This document shows positions 6,460 through 30,698 of a stretch of DNA of 34,134 nucleotides, in pieces. How positions within the stretch are numbered: the stretch's first letter is position 1; each line of letters begins with the position of its first letter. Source of the stretch: Actinomycetota bacterium (GTDB lineage: Bacteria; Actinomycetota; Acidimicrobiia; Acidimicrobiales; AC-14); assembly GCA_040754375.1 (NCBI GenBank), contig JBFMCT010000001.1:1-34134 (forward strand), written 5' to 3'. The notes beneath the pieces were generated by a model. It was not told the origin of the DNA. It worked only from the letters and a program-made list of their open reading frames with translations, and made no database searches. Made by a program: the position numbers and the translations under genes.

Positions 6460-8478
6460 GTGCCACCAGACCACGCCCGTCGCCGACCCAGGTGCACCGC
6501 CCTTGCATCTGTCCTGGTGATAGTCGCGGTCCTCGGCACGGGGGTGGGGTCGGCCGCCCAGTCGCCATCACAGGCGGCCGGCCCCGTACCCGATTTCGTG
6601 GCGCCCGGGCCGTTCCTCGACGGGCCGGCCAACGAGCGGGCGCGCGGCCTGGTGTTCGACGGCCTGCGCCCCAGCCTGCCCGACGAGGCCTGCAAGGGAG
6701 CCTTCGAGTTGCGCCTGGCCTCGGGGGAGACCTCGTGCACGCACGGCCCTGACCCCGCGCCGGTGGACATCGACGTGCGCGAGCCGGCGCCCGTACCTTC
6801 GGTGAGCGCCGAGACCGCCGCCCTGTCCACCATGGCCTGCCAGGGCGACGGCGTGACGGGCAAGCGCGTTCAGCTCGTCTACGCCCGGCCCTCCAACAAC
6901 AGCGACCGCTACTCCAGCTTCGTGGCCAACATCCGGCTGTGGGCCGCCCAGATGGACGACATGGTCAACCTCAGCGCGGCCCAGACCGGGGGAGTGCGGC
7001 ACATCCGCTTCGTCCACGACTCCTCGTGTGTGCCCACTGTGCTCAATGTGACCCTGTCGTCAGCCGGGGACGACACCTTCACCAATACCATCAACGAGCT
7101 TCGGGCCCTGGGCCACAACCGCAGCGACCGCAAGTACATGGTGTGGATGGACTCCAACGTCTACTGCGGGATAGCCCAGGTCTACAACGACGACCGCCCC
7201 GGCCAGGACAACCCCAACAACGGCATCTCCCAGGTGCCCGGCATGGTGGCCCGGGTCGACCGGGCGTGCTGGGGCTCGGCCAACTCGGTCGAGTTGCACG
7301 AGCTCGTCCACACGCTGGGCTCGGTCCAGCCAACCGCCCCCAACGCCACCGCCAACGGCCACTGCACCGACGAGTACGACCGGCTCTGCTACACCGACGC
7401 CGTGGGCGTGCAGATGCGCTACCTGTGCCCCAGCTCCAACGAGGTCCGCCTCGACTGCAACAACGACGACTATTTCTCCACCGCCCCGGTACCGGGCACC
7501 TGGCTGGCCACCCACTGGAACACGGCTAACAGCGCGTTCCTGACCAGCTCGTCGGGCCAGGTCCCGTCTCCCACGACGACCACCACCACGACCGTGCCGC
7601 CGACCACCACCACGACCGTCCCGCCGACGACCACGACCGTCCCGCCGACCACCACCACGACCGTCCCGCCGACGACCACGACCGTCCCGCCGACGACCAC
7701 CACGACCGTCCCGCCGACGACCACCACGACCGTCCCGTCGCCGACCACCACGACCGTCCCGCCGACCACCACGACCGTCCCGCCGACGACCACGACCGTC
7801 CCGCCGACGACCACGACCGTCCCGCCGACGACCACAACCACAACGACCGTCCCGCCCGGGCAGTCGCAGTCGGCCCGGTTCGTGGACTCGTCCTATGCCC
7901 ACATCCTCGGGCGGCCCCCTGCGGCCATCGAGAAGACGGCTTGGCTCAACGCCTTCACTCTCGGAATCACGCGGGCCCAGATGGTCAACGCCCTGTTCGC
8001 CAGCACCGAGTACCGGCGGACGGCCGTCGACGTGTACTACCGCGCCTACCTAGGCCGGCCGGCGTCCGGCGCAGAGATCGACCATCTGGTGGGCCTGGTC
8101 GGCGCCGGGTGGCTGTGGGAGTGGGTGCAGATGGCGATCATCGGCTCCGACGAGTTCTACGCCCGGCGAGGCGGCACGCCAGCCGCCTTCGTCGACGCCT
8201 TGTGCTTGTTCACCATCGGGACCGTCGACGCCAATGCCCGTGCCTTCTGGGTCGACCAGATGAACAAGGGCATGAGCCGCTACACGGTCGCCTTGGCCTT
8301 CACGACCTCGCCCGTGGCCCGCCAGAACGTCGTCAAGGTCGGGTTCTCGTGGTACCTCGGGCGGCCGGCATCAGCCAACGAAGTGCTCGTGTGGTCCAAC
8401 CAGATCACAAATGGCATGCGCCAGGAGGCCTTCTTCGCCGCCCTGGTCGCGTCCCCCGAGTACCTCCTGAAGGTCTGA
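6460..8478 (+). CDS. Secreted metzincin-like protein with Thr-Pro linker and DUF4214 repeats
   Basis: A 672-aa exported protein. The GTG start at 6460 has AAGGGG just upstream and gives a classic signal peptide (Arg-rich n-region, then LASVLVIVAVLG, cleavage near SAAQ). The first domain (about 40-360) contains HELVHTLGSVQ, a zinc-protease HExxHxxG motif in which the usual third His is Gln. It is followed by GHCTDEYDRLCY, where a later His could supply the third ligand. Similar HExxHxxGxVQ...HCxDxxDxMCY arrangements occur in actinobacterial secreted proteases; here the Met-turn Met is Leu. A roughly 95-residue Thr/Pro/Val linker follows, then two or more DUF4214-like repeats (YxxxLGRPxxxxE...F..SxEY), which often occur in surface or adhesion proteins. 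I infer an extracellular protease or matrix-associated protein. Catalytic competence is uncertain. Confidence 0.8.
   Translation: MPPDHARRRPRCTALASVLVIVAVLGTGVGSAAQSPSQAAGPVPDFVAPGPFLDGPANERARGLVFDGLRPSLPDEACKGAFELRLASGETSCTHGPDPAPVDIDVREPAPVPSVSAETAALSTMACQGDGVTGKRVQLVYARPSNNSDRYSSFVANIRLWAAQMDDMVNLSAAQTGGVRHIRFVHDSSCVPTVLNVTLSSAGDDTFTNTINELRALGHNRSDRKYMVWMDSNVYCGIAQVYNDDRPGQDNPNNGISQVPGMVARVDRACWGSANSVELHELVHTLGSVQPTAPNATANGHCTDEYDRLCYTDAVGVQMRYLCPSSNEVRLDCNNDDYFSTAPVPGTWLATHWNTANSAFLTSSSGQVPSPTTTTTTTVPPTTTTTVPPTTTTVPPTTTTTVPPTTTTVPPTTTTTVPPTTTTTVPSPTTTTVPPTTTTVPPTTTTVPPTTTTVPPTTTTTTTVPPGQSQSARFVDSSYAHILGRPPAAIEKTAWLNAFTLGITRAQMVNALFASTEYRRTAVDVYYRAYLGRPASGAEIDHLVGLVGAGWLWEWVQMAIIGSDEFYARRGGTPAAFVDALCLFTIGTVDANARAFWVDQMNKGMSRYTVALAFTTSPVARQNVVKVGFSWYLGRPASANEVLVWSNQITNGMRQEAFFAALVASPEYLLKV
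7570..7858 (+). repeat. Thr-Pro-Val coding tandem repeat
   Basis: An imperfect tandem repeat of 18-24 bp units based on CCGCCGACGACCACGACCGT encodes about a dozen TTTT(T)VPP blocks, the flexible linker of the secreted protein. Unit lengths vary by multiples of three, so the frame is kept. Such arrays are prone to copy-number change. The antisense strand is open too (Val/Gly repeats), but only as a by-product of the repeat. Confidence 0.85.
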
Positions 8479-24190: not shown

Positions 24191-24723
24191 CGCCGCGGCG
24201 GGCGGGCGGGCCGGGTGAGGATGGAAGGGGGGCTCGGGCGGGTGGGGACCAGGCCTGCTGGCGGCCAGGAGAGCACGGACAGGCGGGCGGCCAGCCTCCG
24301 CTCCAGGGCCGGGCCGGCCGTGCGCCGGGCCAGGCGTTCAACGACCCAGGCGAGGGCGGAGGCGACCACCCCCATACCCATGAGCACGGGCACGAAGACA
24401 CCCATCTGGTCCCCCCTGGGCCTCAGCCAGGCGAACGAGCTACGGGGTGGGGGGGCCGTCTCCCGCAGGCGGGCCACGACCTCGGGGTCAGGTCCGGTAG
24501 TGGTGCCCGTCGCCCCCCTTTCCCATCCCCGGCCGGCCGGGAGCCGAGCGAGCACCATCGACGTCCCGAGGGCGATCTCGGCGGCCAGGAACAGGATCCC
24601 GGCGATCACTGCCCGGTTCCACTCCCACCGCCACAGGTATACGAAGAAGTAGGCACCGGAGGTGAGCAGCACGACCGCGGCCAGCAGCCGGGCCAAGCGC
24701 TGAGCAAAGCCCGGCCCCGTCAT
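24187..24723 (-). CDS. Multi-pass membrane protein of unknown function (178 aa)
   Basis: Three likely transmembrane helices: about 11-33 (LARLLAAVVLLTSGAYFFVYLW), 37-58 (AVIAGILFLAAEIALGTSMVLA) and 107-128 (MGVFVPVLMGMGVVASALAWVV). A Gly/Thr/Pro-rich loop lies between helices 2 and 3, and the C-terminal tail is strongly basic and Pro-rich. The ATG at 24723 overlaps the ATP-grasp enzyme's TGA by four bases, and its own stop overlaps the next start in the same way. I do not recognise the family. Tight coupling suggests it forms a membrane complex, or acts in the same process, with the flanking gene products. No catalytic motif is visible. Confidence 0.7.
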   Translation of the reverse strand: MTGPGFAQRLARLLAAVVLLTSGAYFFVYLWRWEWNRAVIAGILFLAAEIALGTSMVLARLPAGRGWERGATGTTTGPDPEVVARLRETAPPPRSSFAWLRPRGDQMGVFVPVLMGMGVVASALAWVVERLARRTAGPALERRLAARLSVLSWPPAGLVPTRPSPPSILTRPARPPRR

Positions 24724-26807
24724 GCCGCACCTATGTGGTGGTCGACGAGGGACACCTCGCCCGTGCTCCCGTCTACCAGCACCAGTGCGCCGGCCGGGAA
24801 GCGAGCCGTGGCGTCGACCACTCCGACGACAGTGGGCACCCCCACCTCCCGGGCCAGGATGGCGAGATGGGAGAGGGGGCTGCCGGTCTCGGCCACCAGG
24901 GCGCCGAGACGGGGCAGGACCGAGGCCAACCTCGGGTCGAGCGACCGTACGACGAGCACCGCGCCCTGGGGTGGGACGCCGGCGCCGCCGTAGACCACGC
25001 CCATCCCACGACCGCCTCCGGCCCCGGCCGCGCCCCCAGGGCGCCCGCGGCGCCGGCGATGGACGGCCGCCACCACCGTCCCCGAGCCCGTGACCCGGAA
25101 GCGGGCCGGCAGCGGCGCCGTCTCCTGTTGGCGGCGGCCGTCGAGGTCAGGTGGGACGGCGCCCGTTCGGACCGCCGCCCGCAACTCGTCGGCCCGCAGC
25201 CAGCCGACCTGGTGGGCGGCTTCCAGAACGCCTCCCTCGGCCAGCCGCTGTCCCAGCTCCCAGGCCGCCCGGGCGGTCAGCTCCTGGGCCCAGCGGGCAC
25301 GGAGCCGCAGTGCCTCCCGCAGAAGGGCGGGGTCGTCGTCGGCGACGCTGGCGGCCGGGAGGTGGGCCAGGGTCGCCTCGGGGGTCGGTGGGAGCAGGGT
25401 GCGTCCCCCGATGCGGGGCGGGACCAGGGCCAGCACGCCCGGGTCCCGCTGCACGATCTCGTCGTCGCTGAGCCCTTCGGCCCGCCCGGCGGCGAGCAGC
25501 TCCATGGCCGACGAAGCGGCCGTCACTCGGGCGGAGGCAGCGTCCACGAGCCACCCCACCAAGACCTCGTGGCCGTGGAGGGCGGTGAGAGCCTGGCGGC
25601 TGGAGTCGAGCAGGTCGAGCAGCTCGCTCCCGGTCATGCGATCGAGCTCGTCGACGGCCAGCAGGTCGGCGTCGGCCCGGGCCACCAGGTCGCGAGCCAG
25701 CACCGGCAGGGCGGACCTGAGACGGCCGACCCGCCAGGCGGCGAGGAGCTTGCGTACGCCCGGCCGGGGATCGAGGCGGGTTGCGGCCGAGCGTGGCGCC
25801 GTCCCGTCGGGTACCACGGCCAGGTCGACAGCCAGGCGCCCGCCGACCACGGCGAGGACCGGCGACGAGGCCAGGCGGCGCCGGGGGGCCGTACCGGCCA
25901 GCGCCAGCGAGTGGCGGAGGGCGTCGCGCAGGGGCTCGGCCCAAAGGTCCTGTTCCAGGGGCGAGAGTGCTTCGGGAAAGGTCTCGGCCACCGGGCCGGT
26001 GCCGAGCAGCGGTCCGGTGCGGGCGTCGCCGCCGCCGGCCGTGACGGGCCGGCTCTGGAGCAGGTGGAAGGCGCCCTCGCTGTCGAACGCCCACTCCACG
26101 TCCTGGGGGCCCCCGAAGGCTCGCTCGGCTGCTCGAGCGTTCCGGGCCAGTTCCCGGCGCTGCCGGCGGTCGAGTATGGCCGGACCATGGGGACCGTCGA
26201 CCAGCCGGCCGTGGCGGGTGAGCACGTAGTTGCTCCCGTCCACCGTTCCACCTACCAGGGCGGCCGGACCGAGTTCGGAAGCGGAGACGAAAAGGCGGTC
26301 GCCGCGCCCGGACACGGGATCGAGGCCGAACGTCACCCCGCCCGATACGGCCCGCAGGTAGGGCTGGACCAGCACGGCCATGGGCGCGTTCCCGCCCCCG
26401 TCCACCAGCGGTACGACGTTGGCGGAGGAGAGCACCGTGCCCACCGCCTCCTGGAACGGGCCCCAGCCGCGCACGTCGAGGACCGACGTGAACAGGCCGG
26501 CCATCGACGTGGTGGCGCCATCCTCGATCGTCGACGACGAGCGAACGGCGAGGGAGAGCTCTCCGCCCTGGGAAAGCTGCGCCCACGCCCCGAAGGCCTC
26601 CTCGCGGTGGGCCGAGCTGGCGTGGTCGTAAGCGGTGGTCAGGACGAAGCCGGGGAGAACGGGCATGCCGACGGCGGCAGCTACCGTGAGGGCGGACGCC
26701 TTCGCACCCGTGAGGGCCGGGTCGCGGGCGGGGCCCTGGCCGAGCCACACCACGGCGGCGGGCGTGGTCGGGCCCAACCGTTCCCCCGATCGGACGGCTG
26801 ACCGCAT
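24720..26807 (-). CDS. PPDK / rifampin-phosphotransferase-like ATP-grasp and phosphohistidine enzyme
   Basis: A 695-aa enzyme from ATG 26807, with GGGAGG 6-11 bases upstream. The N-terminal 270 residues form the PPDK/PEP-synthase ATP-grasp domain: GAKASALTVAAAVGMPVLPGF, LAVRSSSTIEDGATTSMAGLF and a C-terminal VEWAFDSEGAFHLLQSRPV. A helical middle part of about 330 residues follows. The C-terminal swivelling domain has ETGSPLSHLAILAREVG with the phosphorylatable His647. The order ATP-grasp, middle domain, swivel-His and absence of a PEP/pyruvate TIM barrel match rifampin phosphotransferase-type proteins (usually about 870 aa) better than true PEP synthase. It would split ATP and pass phosphate through His to an acceptor bound by the middle domain. 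The acceptor is unknown; antibiotic resistance is possible but not shown. It heads a coupled operon with two membrane or exported proteins. Confidence 0.85.
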   Translation of the reverse strand: MRSAVRSGERLGPTTPAAVVWLGQGPARDPALTGAKASALTVAAAVGMPVLPGFVLTTAYDHASSAHREEAFGAWAQLSQGGELSLAVRSSSTIEDGATTSMAGLFTSVLDVRGWGPFQEAVGTVLSSANVVPLVDGGGNAPMAVLVQPYLRAVSGGVTFGLDPVSGRGDRLFVSASELGPAALVGGTVDGSNYVLTRHGRLVDGPHGPAILDRRQRRELARNARAAERAFGGPQDVEWAFDSEGAFHLLQSRPVTAGGGDARTGPLLGTGPVAETFPEALSPLEQDLWAEPLRDALRHSLALAGTAPRRRLASSPVLAVVGGRLAVDLAVVPDGTAPRSAATRLDPRPGVRKLLAAWRVGRLRSALPVLARDLVARADADLLAVDELDRMTGSELLDLLDSSRQALTALHGHEVLVGWLVDAASARVTAASSAMELLAAGRAEGLSDDEIVQRDPGVLALVPPRIGGRTLLPPTPEATLAHLPAASVADDDPALLREALRLRARWAQELTARAAWELGQRLAEGGVLEAAHQVGWLRADELRAAVRTGAVPPDLDGRRQQETAPLPARFRVTGSGTVVAAVHRRRRGRPGGAAGAGGGRGMGVVYGGAGVPPQGAVLVVRSLDPRLASVLPRLGALVAETGSPLSHLAILAREVGVPTVVGVVDATARFPAGALVLVDGSTGEVSLVDHHIGAA

Positions 26808-26858: not shown

Positions 26859-26877
26859 TTCATCCCGTCAGGATGAA
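26859..26877. promoter_or_regulatory. Palindrome near the ATP-grasp operon promoter
   Basis: TTCATCC (26859-26865) and GGATGAA (26871-26877) form a perfect 7-bp inverted repeat around CGTCA, 52-70 bp upstream of the ATP-grasp start. The minus-strand CATCCT at 26870-26875 inside it is a possible -10 box, so a repressor here could block that promoter. Confidence 0.35.
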
Positions 26878-26898
26878 CTGACCACCAGGCCGTGTGAA

Positions 26899-26912
26899 CC
26901 GTGCGAGCACGA
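26899..26912. promoter_or_regulatory. Degenerate copy of the island operator (facing the ATP-grasp operon)
   Basis: CCGTGC-GA-GCACGA keeps the core of the two perfect sites (CCGTGC-CA-GCACGG) with one arm base changed and a different spacer dinucleotide. Its centre is 72 bp from the copy at 26964-26985 and lies about 42 bp upstream of the start predicted from the CATCCT box at 26870-26875. The spacing matches the other two copies but the promoter call is weak. Confidence 0.4.
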
Positions 26913-26963
26913 CACTTGGCCGCGGGTGCTACCCCCCTCCCTCCTCCGCTCCCGGCCCACGAC

Positions 26964-26985
26964 CTGTCGTCCGTGCCAGCACGGA
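26964..26985. promoter_or_regulatory. Island operator copy upstream of the receiver/kinase operon
   Basis: This 22-bp sequence contains the inverted repeat TCCGTGC-CA-GCACGGA (26970-26985) and is identical to the 22 bp at 29972-29993. A CACAAT -10-like box at 27010-27015 ends five bases before the regulator ATG at 27021, so transcription probably starts at or near the ATG. The palindrome centre would then lie at about -43, a typical activator position. The sequence identity is direct; the binding protein is inferred, with the NarL-type regulator at 30006-30698 the best candidate. Confidence 0.65.
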
Positions 26986-27020
26986 TGCACACCGGCACCG
27001 TCCACGAGCCACAATTGGGC

Positions 27021-27380
27021 ATGCCGATGCGCGTCGTTCTCGTCGACGACGATGCCAGGTTCCGCTCGATGGCCCGCCGCGCCCTGGTGGACGACGGCGT
27101 CGACATCGTCGCCGAGGTCGAGGACGGCCGTGAGGCGGTTGCCGCCGTGGCCCAGTGGGGCCCCGACGTGGTCCTGCTCGACCTCGCCCTGCCCGGTATG
27201 GACGGGCTCGAGGTGGCTCGGCGGCTTCAGGCGGAGCCTGGGGGGCCCATGGTGATACTGATATCGAGCCGCGACCTGGCCCATGGGCGGCGCCTGGCCC
27301 AGGGGTTGGCAGCCGGGTACGTGCCCAAGGACGAACTGTCCCTGGCCGCCATCCTGGCCGTCACCGACGCTGGGCCATGA
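27021..27380 (+). CDS. Receiver-only response regulator (CheY-like)
   Basis: A 119-aa single REC domain. ATG 27021 is chosen over in-frame upstream codons because the domain starts right there (MPMRVVLVDDD) and a -10 box sits just before it. Key residues are the acidic pocket Asp9-Asp10-Asp11, phospho-acceptor Asp54 in VVLLDLALPGMDG, Ser at the Thr/Ser switch (LISS) and the conserved Lys in YVPKDEL. There is no output domain, so it may act by protein-protein contact or as a phosphate intermediate or sink. Its stop overlaps the kinase start by four bases (ATGA), so kinase and receiver are made together. With the DNA-binding NarL-type regulator 3 kb away, a branched or relayed phosphotransfer scheme is possible. 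Confidence 0.9.
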   Translation: MPMRVVLVDDDARFRSMARRALVDDGVDIVAEVEDGREAVAAVAQWGPDVVLLDLALPGMDGLEVARRLQAEPGGPMVILISSRDLAHGRRLAQGLAAGYVPKDELSLAAILAVTDAGP

Positions 27381-29149
27381 GCGGTCGGTGGCGCCTGGGG
27401 GCGGCGGTCGTCACCCTCGTGACCTCGGCCGCCCTGTTCGGCCTGGAGTACGACGACCCCGACGAGTCGGGCTCCCGGCTCTTCGTCGGGGTGCCCATGG
27501 CCATGGTGGGCGCTGGGCTCCTGACCAGTGCCCGCGGGAGCCGACGACTCGGAGGCGCCAAGGCCGACGAGCCCGACAGCCGGCCGCCATCGCTGGTCAT
27601 CAACCTCGGGACCTCGGGCGACCGCGAGACGGCGCGTGACGCCCTGAGGCGGGCGCTCGGGGACCCCGAGCTGGACATCGTCTACCCCCGGGTGGGCGCC
27701 GGAGGCTGGATCGACGAGGTGGGCGACGCCACAGGGTCGACGGGGGACGCGGGGACGGCCTTCACCCCTATCGCCCGGGGCGGTAAGCCGGTGGCCGGGC
27801 TCCTCCACGACCCCGCCCTGCTGGGCGACCCCGACCGGCTGCGGGCTGCGGTGGAGTCGGCGTCGTTGGCCATCGACAACGAACGGCTCAAGGCCCAGGT
27901 GCACGCCCAGCTCGCGGAGGTCCAGGCGTCGCGTGCCCGGATCGTCGACGCCGGCGACCGTGAGCTGCGGAGGGTGGAACGCAACCTCCATGACGGCGCT
28001 CAGCAGCGCCTGGTCGGGCTCGCCCTGGTGCTCCGCCTGGCCAGCCGGAGGGTGGGAGACCGTGCGGTGGGTGACCTGATCGCCGAAGCGGCCAGAGAGG
28101 CTGACGACGCGCTAGCAGAGCTGCGTGAGCTGGCCCGGGGGATCCACCCCGCGATCGTCGACGACGCCGGGATCGAGGGTGCCATCGAGACGCTGGCGGA
28201 ACGGCCGGGGGTGCCCGTCGAGCTGCACCTCGACGTACCGGAGCGACTGCCCCAGCCCGTCGAGGTCGGTGCCTACTACCTCGTCGCCGAGGCCCTGGCC
28301 AACGTCAACAAGCACGCCCACGCCCGCCGGGTGAGCGTGGAGGCCAGCGTCGCCCAGGGAGTGCTGCAGGTCACCGTCTCCGACGACGGCGCAGGCGGCG
28401 CCGTCCCTGCGCCCGGGTCAGGGCTCGAAGGCCTGGCCGACCGGGTCAGCGCGCTGGGCGGCGAGCTGCGCATCGACAGCCCTCGCGGTGGAGGGACGGT
28501 CGTGGCGGCTGCGATCCCCCTGGCCGCGCCTTCGGATACCGAGGTCGAGCGCCGGCGCCTCACCGCCCTCAAGTGGATCGGCTGGGAGAACTGGGAAGTC
28601 CCCGGCGAGCTGTACGAGCAGATCACCGAGGAGGACAACCTCATGGCGGCCAAGGCCGTCCTGCTGTGTGCCGGGGGCAACAGCCGGCTCACGGCGCGGG
28701 AGCGAGAGTGGCTCATCGGTTACCACACGGCCGCGGGGAGCTCAGACCGCGTGATCGAGTTGATCGAGACCTATGACGACTCCGACACCGTGGAAGCGAT
28801 GATGGGGGCTCCGGGCATGGCGCTGATCAGTGGCGCCATGGTCTACGACGCGCTCCGCGCCTGTTGCTCGGACGGCCCGCTCACGCACGACGAGCTCGAC
28901 CGCCTGGCCCGTGGGGCGGCGGCCATGGGAATCGCGCCCGACGCCTTCGCCGCCCTGCGCGAGGTCGTCGACGCCGAGCTAGCCCTCCGCTCCCGCCGGT
29001 ACGAGCTCGTCACGGCCCCGGTGCTCCCCGGGCACCGCCGCGCCGGAGGCTCGGAGGGTCACCGGTCAGGCGACGGGCTGCGAGGTGGCGGCGATGATCT
29101 GGTCGAGGACCGACTGGTCGGGGAGCGGGGGCGGCGGGACCGAGGGTAG
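27377..29149 (+). CDS. NarL/DesK-type sensor histidine kinase with C-terminal TerB-like domain
   Basis: A 590-aa kinase from ATG 27377. Two membrane helices come first (about 5-22 and 35-50), with a short acidic loop. A GAF-remnant-like sensor region follows (PVAGLLHDPALL...LAIDNERLKAQV), then HisKA_3 with phospho-acceptor His205 in ERNLHDGAQQRL, and the HATPase domain (N-box AEALANVNKHAHA, G1 DDGAGG, G2 GSGLEGLADRVSALGG). Kinases of this class normally end here. This one has about 200 more residues. Residues about 418-535 look like a TerB-like helical domain: AAKAVLLCAGGNSRLTARERE, a middle helix block, then VYDALRACCSDGPLTHDELDRLARG...AMGI. The second DG..E metal-type site is kept and the first is not. 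The last 84 bp are antisense to the end of the convergent diiron-protein gene. Confidence 0.88.
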   Translation: MSGRWRLGAAVVTLVTSAALFGLEYDDPDESGSRLFVGVPMAMVGAGLLTSARGSRRLGGAKADEPDSRPPSLVINLGTSGDRETARDALRRALGDPELDIVYPRVGAGGWIDEVGDATGSTGDAGTAFTPIARGGKPVAGLLHDPALLGDPDRLRAAVESASLAIDNERLKAQVHAQLAEVQASRARIVDAGDRELRRVERNLHDGAQQRLVGLALVLRLASRRVGDRAVGDLIAEAAREADDALAELRELARGIHPAIVDDAGIEGAIETLAERPGVPVELHLDVPERLPQPVEVGAYYLVAEALANVNKHAHARRVSVEASVAQGVLQVTVSDDGAGGAVPAPGSGLEGLADRVSALGGELRIDSPRGGGTVVAAAIPLAAPSDTEVERRRLTALKWIGWENWEVPGELYEQITEEDNLMAAKAVLLCAGGNSRLTAREREWLIGYHTAAGSSDRVIELIETYDDSDTVEAMMGAPGMALISGAMVYDALRACCSDGPLTHDELDRLARGAAAMGIAPDAFAALREVVDAELALRSRRYELVTAPVLPGHRRAGGSEGHRSGDGLRGGGDDLVEDRLVGERGRRDRG

Positions 29150-29902
29150 GGCCCGCGTGAGGTCGAGTGCCCGCTGTATGAGCTCGCCCTCGAGGACAGG
29201 CGTGTGGCACCCGGCAATGGTGTTGAGGTCGAGGTTCTGGACGGCGTCGACGGTACGGCCGAACTTGTCGTGGTCCGCTGTCGCCAGCCACGGGCTGACG
29301 GCGCCGAAGGAGAAGAGCGTCATGCCGAACTGCCAGAACTCGGCGTCGAGGTCGCCCACCGCCATCTCGGGTGACGTCAGCGGCGTGGCGAACGAGTCCA
29401 CCGACCAGTACACGCCGGTGGTCGGGTCGAACAGGCCCCGGGTCGTCGGCGAGTCGTAGACCGGCGGCCGCAGCGCGTGCAGCGTCCGGTCGCCGATGCT
29501 GAACGACTCGTCGTGCATGACCCAGCGGCACTTGTCGATGGGGAAGTTGAAGCAGTTGGTGTGGCGTTCGACCATGGCCCAGTTGCAGACGAGGGTGGCG
29601 TTCGGGCAGGCCGTCATCACCTGCTCGAGGTTGCCGGTGTGGTCGACGTCGTCGTGGGACAGGAAGACCCAGCGGACGTCGGCGGGCTCGACGAGGGAGA
29701 AGACGTCTTCGAGCCACTGCTTGCGGTTGGCCGGGGTGCCCGTGTCCACGATGAGGGGCTCCTGGCCGAGGATCACCATCGAGTTGATCTGAACGAACAG
29801 CGGCTGGCCCAGCGCCTCCTGGACCTGGTTGATCACATACGTACCCGGCGCGATCTTCGTGGGCGGGATGTAGATGGTCGGGGCGACCGGTGCGAACGTC
29901 AT
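29066..29902 (-). CDS. Flavodiiron-type metallo-beta-lactamase-fold protein (ODP-like)
   Basis: A 278-aa MBL-fold protein. ATG 29902 has AGAGGAG 7 bases upstream and starts the conserved part; the frame extends further but overlaps the regulator gene antisense. His83, Asp85, Asp87 and His88 in SHDDVDHTG match the HxExDH metal motif of flavodiiron proteins (FprA/ROO), and Asp169 in WSVDSFATPL matches the bridging Asp. The family His usually found in a 'LHWPDxM' block is replaced by Asp (VYDSPTT). CHTPVLEG supplies a late His. There is no flavodoxin domain, so it is a stand-alone oxygen/NO-binding-type diiron module, possibly a sensor or a reductase needing outside electrons. Its promoter carries the island palindrome. 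The stop lies within the convergent kinase gene. Confidence 0.85.
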   Translation of the reverse strand: MTFAPVAPTIYIPPTKIAPGTYVINQVQEALGQPLFVQINSMVILGQEPLIVDTGTPANRKQWLEDVFSLVEPADVRWVFLSHDDVDHTGNLEQVMTACPNATLVCNWAMVERHTNCFNFPIDKCRWVMHDESFSIGDRTLHALRPPVYDSPTTRGLFDPTTGVYWSVDSFATPLTSPEMAVGDLDAEFWQFGMTLFSFGAVSPWLATADHDKFGRTVDAVQNLDLNTIAGCHTPVLEGELIQRALDLTRALPSVPPPPLPDQSVLDQIIAATSQPVA

Positions 29903-29949
29903 GTTGGGCTCCTCTGCTGAGCGCGCGGTGACCGATACCTGGGGAGCGA

Positions 29950-29995
29950 AGGCTACGAACGGCACCGCCCGCTGTCGTCCGTGCCAGCACGGACG
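29950..29995 (-). promoter_or_regulatory. Promoter and island operator of the diiron-protein gene
   Basis: CGTCCGTGC-CA-GCACGGACG (29976-29995) is a perfect 9+9 inverted repeat. Bases 29972-29993 are identical to 26964-26985. On the minus strand TAGCCT (29955 down to 29950) fits a -10 (TANNNT), giving a start near 29943. The palindrome centre is then about 42.5 bp upstream, overlapping the -35 region, typical of NarL-type activation. A 41-nt leader with an AGAGGAG ribosome site leads to the ATG. Confidence 0.6.
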
Positions 29996-30005
29996 GGCGC
30001 AGCCG

Positions 30006-30698
30006 TCAGCGGGGGGCGGGCCCGCCGGCGCGCAGGTGGGCCAGGACGGCCAGCACCCGGCGGTGGGTGGACCGGTCGGCTTGGAGGCCGAGCTTGGTGA
30101 AGATCCTGCTGGTGTGGGTTTCCACCGTGCGGGCTGTGACCGCCAGCCGGTGGGCGATCTCGTCGTTGGAGTGGCCCTCGGCCACCAACTCCAGCACCCT
30201 GCGCTCCTGGGCGGTGAGGCGGGCCATGGAGCCCTCGTACCGGGGGGTGCCGAACACTGTCCGCACCACGTCGGGGTCAACGGCCGTCCCTCCCAGGGCC
30301 ACACGGTTGACGGCGTCGATCAGCTCCGCGGGCCGGGAGATGCGTTCTTTCAACAGGTAGCCGACCCCTCTGTGGCCACCGCGGAGCAGCTCCATGGCAT
30401 GGCGGGTCTCGACGTGTTGGGACAGGACGAGCACCCCCACGTCCGGGAACCGGTGCTTGAGCTCGACGGCCGCCTGCAGCCCCTCGGTCGTGTGGGTCGG
30501 GGGCATGCGGACGTCGAGCACGACCACGTCCGGGTGTTCGGTGCCCATGGTGTCGAGCAGCCCGGAAGCGTCCGAGAGCTGGGCTACGACCTCGACCCCC
30601 TCGTCGGCCAGCAACCGGGCGATCCCCTGGCGGACCAACGGCGCGTCGTCGACGAGGACGACACGTACGGTCCCTGCGGGGGGATTGCCCTCGTTCAA
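30006..30698 (-). CDS. NarL/LuxR-family response regulator
   Basis: A 230-aa two-domain regulator. TTG 30698 is the only start: an in-frame stop lies four codons upstream and no ATG/GTG precedes the receiver domain. The REC domain has Asp17-Asp18, phospho-acceptor Asp62 in VVVLDVRMPP, and Lys in GYLLKERI. The linker is followed by a LuxR-type helix-turn-helix (about 160-222: LTAQERRVLELVAEGHSNDEIAHRLAVTARTVETHTSRIFTKLGL). Such regulators dimerise on inverted repeats when phosphorylated, usually by HisKA_3 kinases like the one at 27377-29149. It is therefore the leading candidate to bind the palindrome found upstream of the kinase operon and the diiron gene, one copy of which lies just after its own stop. 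Partner assignment is inference; family is certain. Confidence 0.93.
   Translation of the reverse strand: MNEGNPPAGTVRVVLVDDAPLVRQGIARLLADEGVEVVAQLSDASGLLDTMGTEHPDVVVLDVRMPPTHTTEGLQAAVELKHRFPDVGVLVLSQHVETRHAMELLRGGHRGVGYLLKERISRPAELIDAVNRVALGGTAVDPDVVRTVFGTPRYEGSMARLTAQERRVLELVAEGHSNDEIAHRLAVTARTVETHTSRIFTKLGLQADRSTHRRVLAVLAHLRAGGPAPR

Follow-up and report, generated by a model that had tools for sequence, protein, structure and literature searches.

What does a 22-bp sequence do that recurs unchanged beside a set of two-component genes? The window, i.e., the whole stretch of 34,134 nucleotides that was analyzed (contig JBFMCT010000001.1 of an Acidimicrobiales bacterium), carries CTGTCGTCCGTGCCAGCACGGA at positions 26964 to 26985 and, identically, at 29972 to 29993. 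The first-pass annotation had reported both copies correctly and had taken them for a palindromic site of a NarL-type regulator, placed at about -42 and tying the two-component genes to their neighbors in a local regulon. The operator at about -42 and the link to the neighbors are supported by the -10 spacing at 23 sites, by the position of the site in three Nocardioidaceae, and by its co-occurrence with the two-component cassette. Judged from the sequences, the 22-mer is very probably a composite operator-promoter module that contains the cognate activation site of a NarL-type two-component system. The genes concerned are the following.

24720 to 26807, minus strand: PEP synthase/PPDK-like protein, possible target (Pfam PPDK_N and PEP-utilisers)
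27021 to 27380, plus strand: receiver-only (REC) response regulator (Pfam Response_reg; translation)
27377 to 29149, plus strand: HisKA_3-type histidine kinase with HATPase, a GAF-like region, and a predicted C-terminal TerB-like domain at about residues 385 to 564 (Pfam; AlphaFold model)
29066 to 29902, minus strand: ODP-family metallo-beta-lactamase-fold (MBL/ODP) protein without a flavodoxin domain, predicted target (Pfam PF19583 and PF00753)
30006 to 30698, minus strand: NarL/LuxR-type response regulator, proposed to bind the sites (Pfam Response_reg and GerE; orthologues 64 to 73% identical)

Copies of the 22-mer in the genome

On the basis of base composition, about 2e-6 (1.6e-6) exact copies of the 22-mer are expected on both strands of the 3.51-Mb genome, and four were observed, so that a chance repeat is indeed very unlikely. 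A pattern search of the whole genome (105 contigs) with the 20-mer at up to 3 mismatches identified five places and no others: two in the window and one each on contigs C13, C27, and C20. The C13 and C27 copies are exact over 22 bp; the C20 copy, with 2 mismatches, is a near copy that adjoins a methyltransferase gene. Over 100 bp, the sequences flanking the four exact copies show 17 to 38% identity, indicating that the copies do not belong to recently duplicated DNA. Both window sites and those on C13 and C27 are intergenic, and the motif is thus not scattered at random through coding DNA.

The regulon cannot be called local, since sites also lie on C13 and C27 (a recurrence missed in the first-pass annotation), the former between a paralogous regulator gene (73% identity), accompanied by its kinase gene, and a divergent SnoaL-like gene. 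This second regulator-kinase pair occupies 3195 to 5654 of C13 (locus L016); its kinase, also 73% identical to that of the window, apparently starts without the two N-terminal transmembrane segments. An orthologous regulator in a C13-like layout was found in A. terrae (locus L091), where the SnoaL-like protein is 54% identical. Pattern searches thus recovered the motif elsewhere in the genome (C13, C27, and C20). It is absent from the genomes of nine family relatives, in which the regulator is present only at about 52% identity or less, and a class-level scan at 1 mismatch gave only single, chance-like matches in four other genomes. Elsewhere in the window, short direct repeats (CCGCCGACCACCACCACGACCGTCCC...) form an array at about 7597 to 7790, which probably corresponds to a Pro/Thr-rich linker inside a coding region.

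Probable operator and promoter elements

When the sites of this genome and of Nocardioidaceae were aligned, the constant core was the 16-bp palindrome (TCCGTGC-CA-GCACGGA in the 22-mer), with inverted 7-bp half-sites and a 2-bp spacer, the 7-2-7 arrangement of NarL-type sites. Wherever a promoter reads away from the core, on one side or on both, the flank CGAC(AG) is present. The window contains these elements.

26870 to 26875: CATCCT, at the exact -10 offset from the degenerate candidate site
26898 to 26913, minus strand: degenerate candidate site GTCGTGC-TC-GCACGGT with the flank TCACAC
26964 to 26969, minus strand: CTGTCG (CGACAG on the minus strand), outward-facing -35-like flank (site alignment and spacing test)
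26970 to 26985, plus strand: 7-2-7 operator core of the receiver/kinase promoter, forming the first 22-mer copy together with 26964 to 26969; equally placed ahead of the orthologous receiver genes at loci L090, L091, L092, and L094
27010 to 27015, plus strand: CACAAT, -10-like box 5 nt ahead of the receiver ATG (in orthologues CAGAGT, GAGAGT, or GAGGGT, 6 nt before the ATG)
29950 to 29955, minus strand: TAGCCT, -10 box for the MBL/ODP gene with the conserved 22-bp offset (spacing test)
29973 to 29978, minus strand: ACGACA, -35 box abutting the operator with one base in common, 17 bp before the -10 box (spacing test)
29978 to 29993, minus strand: 7-2-7 operator core preceding the MBL/ODP gene and lying 13 bp past the stop codon of the regulator gene (exact 22-mer copy)

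The spacing test covered 23 sites (46 directions) from this genome and from cassette-bearing Nocardioidaceae genomes. In 10 of the 46 directions, a TANNNT hexamer begins exactly 22 bp past the operator core (about 8 independent cases, since orthologous promoters account for three of the ten); in 2 directions it begins at 23 bp, and at the remaining offsets from 0 to 53 it occurs once. With shuffled flanks, no offset scored above 4 in 5,000 trials. The sites were partly gathered with a pattern that included the CGAC flank; the -10 position was in no search pattern. Since the hexamer sits at a fixed 22 bp from the core, the operator center would lie near -42.5, which matches simple NarL-activated promoters in Escherichia coli, and the operator stands just upstream of the -35 box at a fixed distance from the -10 box, as is characteristic of NarL-type promoters. 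NarL 7-2-7 sites that abut the -35 box are a known geometry (PMC7419079), and actinobacteria typically have TANNNT -10 boxes and leaderless genes (PMC3898074).

ACGACA matches four of the six bases of TTGACA and is followed by a 17-bp spacer, and the CTGTCG/CGACAG part of the 22-mer is best read as promoter sequence (a -35 box) outside the palindrome. The 22 bp are therefore not one palindrome, as first annotated, but a 7-2-7 operator abutting the -35 box ACGACA, even though the second copy does extend to a 9+9 repeat. An asymmetric 22-bp or a 28-bp palindromic element was considered and dropped once the CGACAG flank coincided with the -35 position. Likewise dropped was the idea that each site serves whichever gene lies toward its CGACAG flank, which would have directed the 26970 site toward the ATP-grasp gene; on that side of the site, there is no -10 box at the expected spacing. 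The half-site TCCGTGC differs from the NarL consensus TACYYMT, which points to a NarL relative with its own specificity rather than to a NarL site.

The TAGCCT and CATCCT boxes named in the first-pass annotation are in place, and CACAAT stands next to the receiver ATG, where a -10 box had been annotated. The MBL/ODP gene starts at 29902, and an AGGAG sequence precedes its start codon. The receiver gene begins with the ATG at 27021, 35 bp downstream of the end of its site, and its CACAAT lies 2 bp further from the operator than the -10 box does in Nocardioidaceae. The hexamers of the orthologues, located 6 nt before the ATG, suggest leaderless transcription, and the receiver gene transcript is probably leaderless or nearly so. 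The weaker copy annotated at 26899 to 26912 is, by sequence alone, at chance level (3 mismatches from the 7-2-7 core; 7 such matches in the window against 5.85 expected). However, its TCACAC flank and the CATCCT at the exact -10 offset make it a plausible operator of the ATP-grasp (PEP-synthase-like) gene, which may possibly belong to the regulon.

Distribution and predicted targets

Of the 84,980 other species scanned, only two Aeromicrobium and two Nocardioides species (family Nocardioidaceae, soil bacteria that are distant relatives) contained the exact 20-mer, and three of these four carry orthologues of the receiver and kinase genes (kinase identity, 59 to 61% over the aligned part). At L090, L091, and L092, 34 bp separate the end of the site from the ATG of the receiver-only gene. 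In Nocardioides LHD-245, a second site adjoins the gene of the NarL-type regulator (68% identity). In a sample of 295 Nocardioidaceae genomes, sites at up to 1 mismatch were present in 4 of the 6 kinase-positive genomes (at least 52% identity over most of the length) and in 2 of the 289 kinase-negative ones (Fisher p, 7e-7). By these counts, sites are mostly confined to genomes with the cassette. Exceptions are as follows: (i) in N. albidus (G405), a perfect 13+2+13 site (L093, 8208 to 8223) precedes the gene of a secreted Ig/calcium-repeat protein, and neither a regulator orthologue at E ≤ 1e-50 nor the kinase was found in this genome; and (ii) G592 has regulator and kinase, and no good site was found there. 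A search of 395 other Acidimicrobiia-level and 396 phylum-level samples did not recover the kinase outside its own genome, suggesting a sporadic distribution, and a search of plasmids did not recover it either. Horizontal transfer of the system is likely.

The site closely follows the stop codon of the regulator gene in four genomes (the window, L090, L091, and L095), each time before a different gene (those for the MBL protein, an MFS transporter, a Crp-type regulator, and a secreted protein), and it lies between the regulator gene and a divergent gene on C13 and at L091, L092, and L094. No site was found upstream of the regulator gene of the window. In L091, L090, L094, L095, and the window (29978), the operator-promoter units flanking the regulator gene serve differing genes, as if cargo had been exchanged.

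In its own genome, the system has as predicted targets the receiver-kinase operon, the MBL/ODP protein, the SnoaL-like protein on C13, and a small, predicted secreted protein on C27, which is cupredoxin-like by reading of the sequence and has no Pfam match. The methyltransferase site on C20 has no -10 box at the right spacing. In Nocardioidaceae, the adjoining genes encode FG-GAP/VCBS, RTX/Ig-type, and Vgb-lyase-like secreted proteins, NmrA, MFS, and SnoaL proteins, and a Crp-type regulator, large secreted proteins being the more frequent theme outside the own genome. The designation of the locus as a redox island is thus weak: the MBL/ODP and cupredoxin-like proteins fit it, but the targets elsewhere are mostly large secreted, SnoaL, MFS, NmrA, and Crp-type proteins.

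Proposed regulation and known systems

With its REC and GerE domains and a HisKA_3/HATPase kinase as partner, the regulator conforms to the NarL/FixJ family of two-component systems. Its orthologues (64 to 73% identity) have the recognition helix RT[VI]ET[HN][TI][SN]RIF in common, which paralogues at 45 to 51% identity lack. The N terminus of the kinase reads as two apparent transmembrane helices with a very short loop between them. Its C-terminal domain, some 180 residues long and shared by all of the orthologues found, is predicted to have a TerB fold: in the AlphaFold model (mean pLDDT of this part, 82), the top Foldseek match was the TerB-family structure 2ou3 (E, 8.8e-7; TM, 0.77/0.85), while the match to Pfam TerB reached only an E of 0.13. 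The predicted domain hints at a metal- or stress-related input.

The repeat, its rarity, its fixed spacing, its conserved position, and its co-occurrence with the cassette were obtained by computation; the binder, its phosphorylation, the signal, and activation rather than repression are what we infer. The partner kinase would phosphorylate the NarL-type regulator (30006 to 30698), and a dimer of it, or of the C13 paralogue, would bind the 16-bp TCCGTGC-NN-GCACGGA. As this operator directly abuts the -35 box (xCGACA), followed by a 17-bp spacer and a TANNNT -10 box, with its center at about -42.5, the bound regulator could contact RNA polymerase and activate transcription. Targets in the window would be the receiver-kinase operon (autoregulation, with a near-leaderless transcript), the MBL/ODP gene, and possibly the PEP-synthase-like gene; elsewhere, they would be the SnoaL-like gene beside the paralogous pair on C13 and the gene of the small secreted cupredoxin-like protein.

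It is unlikely that the module at -42 is real and yet has another transcription factor, or chiefly the C13 paralogue, as its binder, the two-component genes being only among the targets. Such a binder would account for the N. albidus site without the cassette, for one A. terrae site before a Crp-type gene, and for the lack of a site upstream of the window regulator itself, but the sites co-occur with the kinase and hug the regulator gene in several genomes, and the 7-2-7 geometry is typical of NarL-type dimers (PMC7419079). Equally improbable is a role of the sites in repression. A protein bound to an operator that abuts or overlaps the -35 box could block the polymerase; however, the -10 boxes are weak and the -35 boxes nonconsensus, which suggests that the promoters need an activator, and NarL activates at single 7-2-7 sites just upstream of the -35 box (PMC7419079). 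A small mobile repeat (REP/MITE-like), a terminator, or another hairpin without a regulatory role, which the exact palindromic copies on several contigs might bring to mind, is very improbable and largely refuted by the fixed 22-bp spacing to -10 boxes downstream of the palindrome. The unrelated flanks, the number of copies (only 4 to 5), and a placement ahead of orthologous genes that is conserved in another class also speak against it.

The operator-promoter module of a NarL-type system, as preferred here, would be of an ordinary kind of regulon, largely supported by comparisons that are unusually clean; what is new is the operator sequence and the unusual kinase. Literature searches for this two-component system found nothing. 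The analysis provides an operator, a candidate binder, a promoter position, and a list of targets for an apparently undescribed actinobacterial system of an Acidimicrobiia genome and Nocardioidaceae, and the prediction is directly testable, as cultured Aeromicrobium and Nocardioides carry the system. One regulator-operator pair with changing targets in two classes also makes a clean case of regulon movement and rewiring. More tentatively, the TerB-fused kinase, receiver-only protein, and NarL-type regulator might form a sporadic stress-sensing module with its own operator-promoter units, into which lineages plug different, largely secreted cargo.

The closest comparison is to E. coli NarX/NarL at single 7-2-7 promoters such as yeaR-yoaG and ogt, which also have 7-bp inverted half-sites with a 2-bp spacer and one site upstream of or abutting the -35 box, centered near -42 to -45 (PMC7419079). 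Both systems pair a NarL-family regulator with a HisKA_3-type kinase, but the one described here has TCCGTGC in place of TACYYMT, other targets, an extra receiver-only protein, and a TerB-like kinase domain. With TerB-family domain proteins (PDB 2ou3), the kinase C terminus shares the predicted fold, here fused to a HisKA_3 histidine kinase. In the DosR/DosS dormancy regulon of mycobacteria, too, a NarL-family regulator of actinobacteria has palindromic sites ahead of its own gene and of distant ones; this regulon differs in operator sequence and targets, and perhaps in its heme/GAF sensor.
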